Origin: Microbacterium amylolyticum | GTDB lineage: Bacteria; Actinomycetota; Actinomycetes; Actinomycetales; Microbacteriaceae | NCBI RefSeq assembly: GCF_011046975.1 | Contig: NZ_CP049253.1 | Span: 2,418,001 to 2,482,000, forward strand | Length of the DNA stretch: 64,000 nt | Direction of reading: 5' to 3' | Shown here: positions 50,821 to 57,973 of the stretch, one piece after another | Layout: the number at the start of each line of letters is the position of its first letter | Numbering within the stretch: the stretch's first letter is position 1 | Made by a program: the position numbers and the translations under genes | Notes under the pieces: model-generated | The model's input: the letters and a program-made list of their open reading frames with translations, nothing else | Told to the model about the DNA's origin: nothing | Database searches by the model: none

Positions 50821-50894
50821 CGGGATGTGGCGCAGCTTGGTAGCGCACTTGACTGGGGGTCAAGGGGTCGCAGGTTCAAATCCTGTCATCCCGA
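50821..50894 (+). tRNA. tRNA-Pro (anticodon GGG)
   Basis: A 74-base cloverleaf. The acceptor stem is CGGGATG with CATCCCG plus discriminator A. The anticodon stem CTTGA/TCAAG encloses loop CTGGGGG, giving anticodon GGG, and the T-arm is GTCGCAGGTTCAAATCC. CCA is not encoded. Its 3' part (50859-50880) is duplicated at 57952-57973, marking it as an integration site. Confidence 0.95.
50859..50880 (+). repeat. Left attachment-site repeat within tRNA-Pro
   Basis: These 22 bases, from GTCAAGGGG through GGTTCAAA, run from the anticodon arm into the T-arm. They recur without mismatch at 57952-57973, 7,093 bases away in the same orientation. Confidence 0.9.
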
Positions 50895-50900
50895 CAGAAA

Positions 50901-50933
50901 AGCCCAGGTGAGAGCAGGTTTCTCACCTGGGCT
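50901..50933 (+). terminator. Terminator after tRNA-Pro
   Basis: A 13-base perfect stem (50901-50913 with 50921-50933) with a seven-base loop begins seven bases after the tRNA and is followed by a T-rich stretch. Region 50934-51064 beyond it holds a small AGCACCC/GGGTGCT hairpin at 50972-50991 and no gene. Confidence 0.8.
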
Positions 50934-51064
50934 TCGTCGTTTCTGTTGTCCTTTTCGGAGGGGTTTATGGAAGCACCCGGCCGCGGGTGCTGATGCCTTC
51001 CGGGACGCTCCAGGACCGTTCGATGCGCTCCGCGGACTCGTCCGATCGGGCGAGCAGCGCCACC

Positions 51065-51098
51065 GCCGTCCCGCAGCCGCGACGGCCGGCGGGACGGC
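51065..51098 (-). terminator. Terminator of the alpha-galactoside operon
   Basis: GCCGTCCCGC (51065-51074) pairs perfectly with 51089-51098, 15 bases beyond the stop of the last minus-strand permease gene. Confidence 0.65.
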
Positions 51099-51113
51099 GG
51101 CATCCGTCCGGAA

Positions 51114-52034
51114 CTACTTGATCGACCCGCGCATCACGCCGGAGATCACCCAGCGCTGCGAGAAGATGTAGACGATCAGCAGCGGAGCCATCGCCATGAG
51201 GTACGACGCGAACGCGACGGTGTAGTCGGTGTTGTACTGCCCCTGGAAGACGTACTGCGCGAGCGACAGCGTCCGGTCAGAGGGCGAGGTTAGCACGACG
51301 AGCGGCATGATGAAGTCGTTCCAGGCCCAGACGCAGGTGAGGATGCCGACCGTTGCGTTCATCGGCATGAGCAGCGGGAACACGATCTGCCGGAACACGC
51401 GCCACGTCGATGCGCCGTCCATCCGCGCCGCTTCTTCGAGCTCGATCGGGATCGAGCGGATGAACGCGGTGTAGATGAAGATGTTCAGGCTCAGGCCGTA
51501 GATCGTGTAGAGCACGATCATGCCCGCGGGGTTGTCGAGCCCGAGGAGCGACGTCTGCTTCACCAGCGGCAGCATGATGATCGGGAACGGGATGAACAGC
51601 GCCGCCAGCAGGTAGTAGAAGACGCCCTTGAAGAACGGCCGGTGCAGGTTGCGCGCCAGCGCGTAGGCGACGAGCGAGCTCGTCAGCAGCGTGAGCACCA
51701 CCGAGCCGACCGTGATGATGGCCGTGTTCATCAGCGCCTGCGGGAACGAGGTGCGCTCCCAGGCGACGGCGAAGTTCTCCCAGTTGATCGGCCAAGGGAG
51801 CTCGAAGCCCGTCCCGCCGGCGAGCTGCGCCGGCGTCTTGAGGGCGACGGCGACCGCGAGGTACAGCGGGATGAGCACCGTGAGCGAGCAGACGGCGATG
51901 AGGGCGGTCGCCCACCAGTTGGTGCGGCGGGTGTCGGACGGATCGTAGCCGCCCGAGAAGCGACGCTTGCGCGGCACGACGACGGCGATGGTGGTGGGGC
52001 CCGCCTCGACGGGCGTGGTGACGGAGCTGGACAT
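51114..52034 (-). CDS. Sugar ABC transporter permease (MalG/CUT1 type)
   Basis: A 306-aa permease with a cytoplasmic N-terminus of about 35 residues and six helices. The CUT1 EAA loop is EEAARMDGASTWRVFRQIVFPLL near residue 205. The C-terminal WVISGVMRGSIK is typical of MalG-like proteins. The start at 52034 overlaps the stop of the other permease by one base (TGATG). It is the last gene of a four-gene operon. Codons end almost always in G or C. The operon has no ATPase, so a shared MsiK/UgpC-like ATPase elsewhere is likely. Confidence 0.92.
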   Translation of the reverse strand: MSSSVTTPVEAGPTTIAVVVPRKRRFSGGYDPSDTRRTNWWATALIAVCSLTVLIPLYLAVAVALKTPAQLAGGTGFELPWPINWENFAVAWERTSFPQALMNTAIITVGSVVLTLLTSSLVAYALARNLHRPFFKGVFYYLLAALFIPFPIIMLPLVKQTSLLGLDNPAGMIVLYTIYGLSLNIFIYTAFIRSIPIELEEAARMDGASTWRVFRQIVFPLLMPMNATVGILTCVWAWNDFIMPLVVLTSPSDRTLSLAQYVFQGQYNTDYTVAFASYLMAMAPLLIVYIFSQRWVISGVMRGSIK

Positions 52035-56453: not shown

Positions 56454-56482
56454 GTTTTACAGGGGAAATATTCCGACGTCAA
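56454..56482 (-). promoter_or_regulatory. Promoter of the alpha-galactosidase operon
   Basis: On the minus strand TTGACG (56477-56482) and TAAAAC (56454-56459) are separated by 17 bases. The -10 box ends seven bases before the ATG at 56446. This is a near-consensus, leaderless promoter. Confidence 0.65.
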
Positions 56483-56502
56483 GAGTGCCCTCCGCGGCTG
56501 AT

Positions 56503-56516
56503 CCGATCGCGATCGG
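56503..56516. promoter_or_regulatory. Perfect palindrome, possible ROK operator
   Basis: CCGATCGCGATCGG is a 14-base perfect palindrome between the divergent alpha-galactosidase and ROK genes. Position suits an operator, but such GC-rich palindromes also arise by chance. Confidence 0.35.
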
Positions 56517-56562
56517 GCCTCGTATTCGTGCCAGAATGAAATCAACGTCAGAAGGAGTGGTC

Positions 56563-57675
56563 ATGAGTGAGAGTGAGACCGCCGTCGCTCGTGCCGTCCT
56601 GATCCACGGCCCGCTCTCGAGACGCGACCTCACTGCTCGGCTCGGCCTGTCGCCGGCGAGCCTCACCCGACTCGCCAAGCCGCTGCTCGAGCGAGGTCTC
56701 CTCATCGAGCTCGACGAGGTGACCGACGGCTCGGTCGGGCGACCGTCGCGCCCCCTCGACATCGCACCAGGACTCGGCACCTTCGCCGGGGTGAAGATCA
56801 CCGGCGACGAGATCATCGCGGTCGGCACCGACATCCGGGCGGAATCGGTGGCTGGCGATGAACGCCCGTTGTCCGATCACGCTCCGGATGCGGTCCTCGC
56901 CCTCGTCGCAGCGACGATCCGCGGCCTCGGTCTCACCGACCTGCGGGGTGTCGGCGTCAGCGTCGGCGGTGTCGTCCAGGGAGGGGTCGCCGTGTTCGCT
57001 CCATTCCTCGACTGGATCGACGTCGACGTCCGCGCCACCCTCGAGGCGGAGCTCGGCGTGCCCGTGAGCGTCGAGAACGACGTCGTCGCGCTCGCCGAGG
57101 CGGAGCGCTGGTTCGGCGCCGGGCGGGGACTCGACGGCTTCGCGACGATCACGATCGGCGCGGGCGTCGGTTACGGGCTCGTCGTCGCCGGTGAGGTCGT
57201 CCGTACCCCCGACGCGACGACGGGGACCGGCGGGCACATTCCGCTCGACCCCTACGGACCCGTCTGCAGCGACGGGCACCGCGGGTGCGCGCAGGCGATG
57301 CTGTCGGCCGGGTCGATCACGACGCAGGTGTCCGCAGCGCTCGGCCGGGCGGTCGACTACGACGAGACGCTCCGGCTCGCCGCGTCCGACCACCCCGCCG
57401 CGAGGGCGGTGGTGGATGCCGCGGGCACAGCCCTCGGACGGTTCATCGCGCTCGCCGCGAACCTCAGCCTGCAGTCCGCCGTGGTGCTCTCGGGGGAGGG
57501 CATCGGCCTGTTCCGGGTCGCGGAACGGGCGGTGCGCGACGCGCTCGCAGCGGGACGCGACGCGCAGGCCGCCCCGATCGACATCCACGTCGACGTGTCC
57601 GGGTTCCGCGCGTGGGCAAGGGGTGCCGCCGCCGTCGCGATCCAGGAGTCGATGGAACGGATGCGGCTCGGCTGA
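56563..57675 (+). CDS. ROK-family transcriptional regulator
   Basis: A 370-aa NagC/XylR-type repressor. The N-terminal winged helix-turn-helix (residues 5-70) contains LSRRDLTARLGLSPASLTRL. The sugar-kinase-like ROK domain starts with FAGVKITGDEI and has ATITIGAGVGYGLVV. The zinc motif CxCGxxGC is altered: CSDGHRGC has Asp in place of the second cysteine. AAGGAG five bases before ATG 56563 decides this start. It is divergent from the alpha-galactosidase operon and is its probable regulator. Confidence 0.9.
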   Translation: MSESETAVARAVLIHGPLSRRDLTARLGLSPASLTRLAKPLLERGLLIELDEVTDGSVGRPSRPLDIAPGLGTFAGVKITGDEIIAVGTDIRAESVAGDERPLSDHAPDAVLALVAATIRGLGLTDLRGVGVSVGGVVQGGVAVFAPFLDWIDVDVRATLEAELGVPVSVENDVVALAEAERWFGAGRGLDGFATITIGAGVGYGLVVAGEVVRTPDATTGTGGHIPLDPYGPVCSDGHRGCAQAMLSAGSITTQVSAALGRAVDYDETLRLAASDHPAARAVVDAAGTALGRFIALAANLSLQSAVVLSGEGIGLFRVAERAVRDALAAGRDAQAAPIDIHVDVSGFRAWARGAAAVAIQESMERMRLG

Positions 57676-57951
57676 CGCATCAACGTGGGAATGTCCTCGC
57701 CGGCTCGACCCGCATCACGTGCGGCAGTGCGCCGTGATACGGGTTTGCTCGAGGGTAGGGAATCGTGAAGCCGCGAACCCGGCCGCGTCAGGCCTTCCCG
57801 CGCGAACGCGGCCGCGTACATCTTCGCCAGGGGCAGACGAGACACATCTACACCAAGCACCGTTAGTTGCCGACAAGTGATCACAATGACTGACCTGGCG
57901 TGATGCCCGTGCGTTCACCTGCGCAAGCAGGCGGTCTCTGCCAGCGGTGAT
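57676..57951. other. Non-coding stretch inside the right island end
   Basis: About 275 bases between the ROK gene and the right repeat. I see no credible gene; short frames on both strands lack ribosome-binding sites and family resemblance. It probably carries the element's end sequences. Confidence 0.6.
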
Positions 57952-57973
57952 GTCAAGGGGTCGCAGGTTCAAA
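57952..57973 (+). repeat. Right attachment-site repeat (tRNA-Pro fragment copy)
   Basis: A perfect 22-base copy of tRNA-Pro positions 50859-50880. No other part of the tRNA is present: flanking bases diverge at once on both sides. The stop codon of the truncated hydrolase gene lies within it. Confidence 0.9.

Follow-up and report, generated by a model that had tools for sequence, protein, structure and literature searches.

An alpha-galactoside operon beside tRNA-Pro(GGG) in Microbacterium amylolyticum, probably within a decayed composite genomic island

In Microbacterium amylolyticum an alpha-galactoside operon lies between an intact tRNA-Pro(GGG) gene and a short second copy of part of that gene. 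The locus falls within a window of 64,000 nucleotides, the whole stretch analysed here (contig NZ_CP049253.1, positions 2,418,001 to 2,482,000); coordinates below count from the window's first base, and G and L numbers denote the genomes and loci with which it was compared. From left to right the following features are present.

50821–50895, plus strand: intact tRNA-Pro(GGG), found with ARAGORN; left end of the island.
50859–50880, plus strand: left copy of the 22-bp repeat, within the tRNA.
50896–50945, plus strand: terminator-like hairpin of the type seen 3' of the element-borne tRNA-Pro copies of relatives.
51001–51096, minus strand: remnant of the N-terminal part of an oxidoreductase gene, the left edge of the donor segment; 65 bp at 95% identity to L155:12324-12388 of Microbacterium sp. 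EYE_78.
51114–52034, minus strand: permease 2 of a CUT1 ATP-binding cassette (ABC) transporter (Pfam BPD_transp_1; 93% amino acid identity to G135).
52034–52966, minus strand: permease 1 of the CUT1 ABC transporter (Pfam BPD_transp_1; 90% amino acid identity to G135, 91% to G169).
52968–54254, minus strand: sugar-binding protein of the transporter (Pfam SBP_bac_1).
54284–56446, minus strand: GH36 alpha-galactosidase (Pfam Melibiase, 5e-122, plus GH36 N and C domains; 91% amino acid identity to EYE_78).
56563–57675, plus strand: ROK-family regulator, divergent from the alpha-galactosidase (Pfam ROK, 7e-32).
57676–57734, no strand assigned: donor-locus DNA 3' of the ROK gene, the right edge of the recognisable donor segment; 58 bp at 78% identity to L155:9950-10007.
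57735–57951, no strand assigned: 217 bp whose source was not recognised, matched only briefly and weakly in 366 genus genomes.
57952–57973, plus strand: right copy of the repeat (25 bases at one mismatch), probably a displaced remnant of a tRNA-Pro 3' half, truncated at both ends.
57953–58498, minus strand: truncated alpha/beta-hydrolase gene of 181 amino acids (Pfam), for which the repeat supplies the final six codons (FEPATP) and the stop.

The operon combines a GH36 enzyme, two CUT1 permeases, a binding protein and a divergent ROK regulator in conserved order. As judged from these families, its most likely role is uptake of alpha-galactosides by the CUT1 transporter and their cleavage by the GH36 enzyme, under the control of the ROK protein. 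The ATPase of CUT1 transporters is usually a shared one, of the MsiK type. The original prediction had correctly listed the alpha-galactosidase, the CUT1 transporter and the ROK regulator between the repeats and had missed the oxidoreductase remnant.

Where does this operon come from? As a whole it aligns over 6.6 kb to the relatives G135 (84.2% identity) and G169 (81.3%), and in G015, G143, G079 and G025 the alpha-galactosidase alone is aligned, at 82.7–86.7%. To the left of the tRNA, syntenic core DNA shows 71.4–73.5% identity in five of six relatives; in the sixth, G169, it aligned over 351 bp only, at 65.5%. The alpha-galactosidase gene of G015, G143, G079, G135, G169 and EYE_78 is located between recQ and an acyl-CoA-oxidase-like gene, as named from their sequences. 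The window genome keeps both genes, likewise ordered but without the operon; 5.7 kb separates them, and other genes occupy the interval. At E <= 1e-60 its only alpha-galactosidase match is that of the window. One large and two smaller open reading frames fill this gap (L235:5783-11276), at the position of the alpha-galactosidase in relatives. Between the window genome and EYE_78, protein identity is 91.1% for the alpha-galactosidase, 75.2% for RecQ and 73.9% for the oxidase; between EYE_78 and G015 the same proteins are 89.7%, 98.0% and 95.0% identical. The window's alpha-galactosidase is thus as close to that of EYE_78 as the G015 enzyme is, and its flanking proteins are far more distant: the operon came to the window genome from the EYE_78/11MF clade or one close by, and its flanks did not.

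Codon usage likewise sets the operon apart. The G+C content at third codon positions (GC3) ranges from 0.879 to 0.967 in the five operon genes, versus 0.735–0.848 in 18 core genes of the window (mean 0.784, standard deviation 0.032), and GTT accounts for 2% of valine codons in the operon versus 27% in the core. The codon-usage distance of the operon to the core is 6.4, while 500 random draws of five core genes gave at most 4.1. The original prediction had claimed a preference for G/C-ending codons in the island against a GTT-rich core, a claim with which both counts agree, and had named identical codon usage inside and outside as an outcome that would speak against an acquired island; the two differ. 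Its description of the locus as an acquired catabolic island is further upheld by the identity to the donor clade and by the native locus without the operon. Acquisition of the DNA between the repeats is well supported by these sequence comparisons. Could the operon instead have been inherited vertically and relocated within the chromosome from the recQ-oxidase locus? Relatives hold it there, and in the window genome that locus is vacant of it; however, the alpha-galactosidase is much more similar to its donor-clade counterpart than the flanking genes are to theirs, and the codon usage of the operon is foreign. We consider relocation scarcely credible and, on the protein identities to EYE_78 given above, have rejected it.

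Judged by these alignments, the transferred segment is approximately 51001–57734 (6.7 kb), with its left edge in a broken donor gene. The EYE_78 counterpart of the remnant at 51001–51096 lies within a 376-amino-acid open reading frame that adjoins its alpha-galactosidase; the oxidoreductase is presumably of the Gfo/Idh/MocA type. The counterpart of the right edge, L155:9950-10007, is found at the opposite end of the EYE_78 alpha-galactosidase from the oxidoreductase side, and the alignment of the operon to G135 stops at 57732. With a gene broken at its left edge, the segment seems to be a piece cut at random from a chromosome and not a well-defined cassette. The locus thereby offers a case of catabolic operon exchange between Microbacterium species in which donor clade, native locus and approximate breakpoints are visible.

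The window contains two exact copies of the 22-mer of 50859–50880, starting at 50859 and 57952; both are on the plus strand, and the minus strand has none. The perfect recurrence of 22 tRNA-Pro bases in the same orientation, as originally predicted, thus stands, and it is far longer than chance would give: when the 7.6 kb 3' of the tRNA was shuffled 200 times with a first-order Markov model, the longest stretch identical to the tRNA was 9.2 bases on average and at most 13. When one mismatch is allowed, the repeat grows to 25 bases. It corresponds to bases 39–60 of the 75-base tRNA (39–63 with the mismatch), and is therefore internal and not the true 3' end, a point that the original prediction had missed. 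Besides the right copy, a genome search at E <= 0.001 turned up no short copy of this kind; the three remaining matches cover most of the tRNA at 73–83% identity and are presumably other tRNA genes.

What was right about this second copy in the original prediction was its recurrence; what was missed is that it ends inside the truncated hydrolase gene and supplies its last codons. The hydrolase has matches in 103 of 149 genus genomes, the window genome included, the closest elsewhere being 51% identical. In an alignment with 13 of 19 homologues (six with open frames outside 255–300 amino acids, stop to stop, were dropped), similarity ends at about residue 175 and the homologues continue for a further 90–105 residues or so; the best domain match ends at residue 160, and the repeat encodes residues 176–181. 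Since similarity stops at the repeat, the right repeat joins a tRNA fragment to the interior of a gene, not to an intact chromosomal flank. A search of the genome for the lost 3' part, with the C-terminal part of a homologue placed first in a concatenated query, found nothing. With 57690–58060 as query against the 366 genus genomes, two candidates being scored in each, the matches listed are either copies of the tRNA or short and weak (at best 47 bits), and 57700–57973 had no match to plasmids. Farther right, 57974–64000 matched DNA in 3 of 12 relatives, mostly an insertion sequence (IS)-like piece in G144, and the 20 kb beyond 64000 matched in all 12, at scattered places; with matches this few or scattered, the original junction cannot be placed. 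A large secreted-protein gene that adjoins the tRNA in G015 was of no help in locating the window's flank. The IS-like piece, 60046–60714, is an IS3-family transposase remnant (partial, under the family cut-off) with a 94% copy elsewhere in the window genome and nine full or partial matches at 90–91% in G144.

Why should a fragment of tRNA-Pro lie 7 kb from the gene itself? Relatives of M. amylolyticum provide a precedent. At ten split loci in nine genomes, here called class A (L107 of G143, L108 of G135, L111 of G169, L101 of G025, L135 of G007, L139 of G018, L141 of G033, L144 and L145 of G022, and L147 of G144), the host promoter and the 5' half of the tRNA are still in place upstream; 80–91 bp further on comes a second, complete tRNA-Pro that has a leader of its own. 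These elements split the tRNA at the anticodon loop, have CTGGGGG at both ends, bring their own tRNA terminator and, where it was found, have the 3' half at the far end. Where a relative has the displaced 3' half on the contig of the tRNA itself, it lies 2.1–80 kb downstream. Exact 5' halves of the tRNA occur at least twice in 27 of 149 genus genomes, of which at least 23 show a pair spaced 80–91 bp, and are absent from nine. When the flanks of the G143 element are joined, they align to the unoccupied site of G015 over 491 bp at 94.7% identity, 433 bases to the left and 57 to the right of the junction; past this alignment about 3 kb extra in G143 precedes the next stretch that the two have in common (281 bp, 89%). 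Pfam identifies a phage-family integrase in three tRNA-Pro islands (G018, G169, G143) and a conjugative coupling protein in that of G018; five other proteins scanned from the islands of G079, G006 and G017 included no phage integrase. On this evidence tRNA-Pro(GGG) is an integration hotspot in Microbacterium.

Several further observations were made at these loci. At 13.5–13.7 kb of L145 (G022) a stranded 5' half is preceded by an element-type leader, which suggests that the spare tRNA of one element served as the integration site of a second. Large AAA_13 ATPases are encoded inside the islands of G079 (L112:8785-11073) and G169 (L111:6148-8484); Pfam AAA_13 includes anticodon-nuclease-type defence proteins. 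G007 has a second full-length but diverged (92%) tRNA-Pro about 25.5 kb downstream of the first (L136, ~3.8 kb), and in G017 the tRNA-Pro island is 2.1 kb long, with small genes and no obvious integrase (L137, 2.9–5.1 kb). Among phage records searched with the tRNA and terminator, 387 gave partial matches.

Does the tRNA of the window bear traces of such an element? The sequence directly behind it (50896–50950) folds at -27 kcal/mol (z -5.6). When the 55 bases 3' of the tRNA were compared with 37 other loci, one per genome and non-random in being the best tRNA matches, the nine highest scores went to eight of the nine split loci and to G095, where a displaced copy is present and a stranded 5' half is absent. 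The unsplit loci of G011 and G028 rank next, and the ninth split locus, that of G169, scores low. The 21 bases directly 5' of the tRNA lean more weakly to the split type, and the promoter region farther upstream is host-like by eye. A terminator of the element-borne type implies that an element probably integrated here once. The simplest reading would be past integration followed by recombination between the two 5' halves, which may have tidied the locus later, as G095 suggests.

The comparison with displaced copies bears on another explanation, in which the right copy is filler DNA, taken from the tRNA gene by template switching during break repair. It is indeed internal to the tRNA, short, and placed at a broken-gene junction. 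Yet its orientation and left edge agree with the displaced copies of G079 and G006, its start lying no more than one base from theirs, the tRNA has an element-type terminator, and the tRNA is a hotspot, with the joined flanks of the G143 element matching an unoccupied site. Filler DNA is thus improbable.

A tyrosine recombinase had been part of the original prediction, with the island having either lost its integrase or been mobilised in trans. The recombinase link holds up indirectly, through the hotspot in the genus and the element-type terminator, but not through an integrase in the island itself. A tblastn search with the three class A integrases covered 170 kb of the window genome (the window, 60 kb to its right and a second contig of 45.6 kb); its only significant match, at about 37.1–37.7 kb, is a 300-amino-acid XerD-like open reading frame (36770–37672) outside the island, which fits the proposed loss. 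Mobilisation in trans is not supported. A small island that is still mobile, with working attachment sites, would explain the direct repeats, the compact size and the complete operon; but in the right copy CTGGGGG is missing and the sequence breaks off within the T-loop, unlike a working attachment site, so that excision by a class A integrase is not expected, and the 170 kb holds no close relative of the hotspot integrases. We regard such continuing mobility as very improbable. A simple excisable island was rejected because the crossover bases are absent from the right copy. On the second contig (L245-L247) a coupling protein is 40% identical to that of the G018 element by tblastn, and neighbouring open reading frames resemble, by eye only, a relaxase, a resolvase and a methyltransferase; this contig is perhaps a conjugative plasmid.

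Taken together, we consider the 7.1 kb to be probably, though by no means certainly, a decayed composite genomic island at tRNA-Pro, in which the fragment would be an integrase-displaced 3' half, the operon would have come with or into the element, and the integrase would have been lost later. First, a tyrosine-integrase element like those of relatives may have entered tRNA-Pro(GGG) and swapped the 3' half of the tRNA, or the whole gene, together with the terminator for its own copy, moving the original 3' half to the far end. The 6.7-kb chromosomal piece from the Microbacterium EYE_78/11MF clade, whose transfer the comparisons show, would then have ended up inside the element, either as its cargo or through later recombination. 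Finally, integrase and transfer genes may have been lost, and a deletion or rearrangement would have joined the T-loop-cut 3' half to the middle of the hydrolase gene. What remains would be a working catabolic operon, as predicted from its gene families, that is no longer mobile.

A number of observations weigh against this history. Neither the Pfam scan of the island genes nor the integrase tblastn detected integrase or transfer genes between the repeats, and no stranded 5' half lies upstream of the window's tRNA. Besides its cut within the T-loop, the right copy differs at its start from 11 of 13 displaced copies, which begin with CTGGGGG; the other two, those of G079 and G006, start directly after it (the 13 were picked from the matches of relatives, a diverged full-length tRNA in G007 being excluded). 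The 217 bp left of the right repeat and some 55 bp behind the terminator are without a recognised source. The right junction appears in none of the other genus genomes at the two candidates scored in each of the 366, and the succession of events can therefore not be dated. To the right of the repeat, three genes have a codon-usage distance of 4.2, where random core draws gave at most 4.1; being somewhat unusual, they suggest that foreignness may extend past the repeat. Lastly, none of 80 alpha-galactosidase loci of other named genomes (the best 80 of 592, with flanks of up to 10 kb, some shorter) lies near tRNA-Pro, and therefore no relative shows the operon as cargo of such an element.

An alternative is two unrelated events, in which an old tRNA-Pro element decayed to a 3'-half fragment and the operon later entered as a random fragment, by transformation or illegitimate recombination and without an integrase. 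A truncated donor gene on the left and donor flank on the right are what a random fragment predicts, and no integrase was found in the island. Against this, the tRNA and the one short tRNA-Pro copy found in the genome bracket the operon exactly, and transporter cargo may not be unusual in tRNA-Pro islands: that of G135 resembles the permease region of the window at about 43% by tblastx, and by tblastx only. We hold two separate events to be unlikely, but a serious alternative.

A wider proposal follows the composite-island reading, and we regard the case for it as evenly balanced. A family of Microbacterium integrative elements, at least one of them conjugative, would split tRNA-Pro(GGG) and bring a spare tRNA-Pro with terminator; in M. 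amylolyticum the element would be dead, the cell would depend on the tRNA it donated, whole or in its 3' part, and the spot would then have housed a foreign sugar operon. The hotspot matters more than the single island, as tRNA-splitting elements with full replacement would tie the supply of tRNA-Pro to mobile DNA. A literature search of titles and abstract openings surfaced no description of elements carrying a complete tRNA gene, which does not imply their absence from print.

How does the locus compare with known systems? In the Islander paper (PMC4383910), tRNA-gene islands are defined by an intact tRNA at one end and a fragment in the same orientation at the other. The window locus shares the intact tRNA, the downstream same-orientation fragment and foreign cargo between them; the fragment lies outside a Pfam domain, and the length of 7.1 kb is within 2–200 kb. 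It departs from that definition, to the further detriment of the composite-island reading, in that the fragment is internal rather than terminal and fused into a broken gene, and in that no integrase was found inside. With its integrase and internal-fragment filters, Islander would reject the locus. It may show how a tRNA-linked island looks once decay has reached the mobility genes and the attachment site, and islands of that form would be discarded by rule-based finders.

With class A elements the locus shares the same tRNA and the same type of terminator. These elements, however, leave a 5' half upstream and end on the right in CTGGGGG where that end was found, and the window has neither; nor does its island match their integrases (G018, G169, G143) or coupling protein (G018). 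Another actinomycete element, pSAM2, uses a tRNA-Pro site. Compared with pSAM2 and other actinomycete integrative elements (survey, PMC3218068), the window island is without a detected integrase, and replication and transfer genes are not seen among its five genes. Among actinobacterial alpha-galactoside operons the window operon is set apart by adjoining tRNA-Pro, but its gene content and order are the same as in G135 and G169, and its five genes are likewise grouped together in Microbacterium hibisci, Herbiconiux and Cellulomonas terrae.

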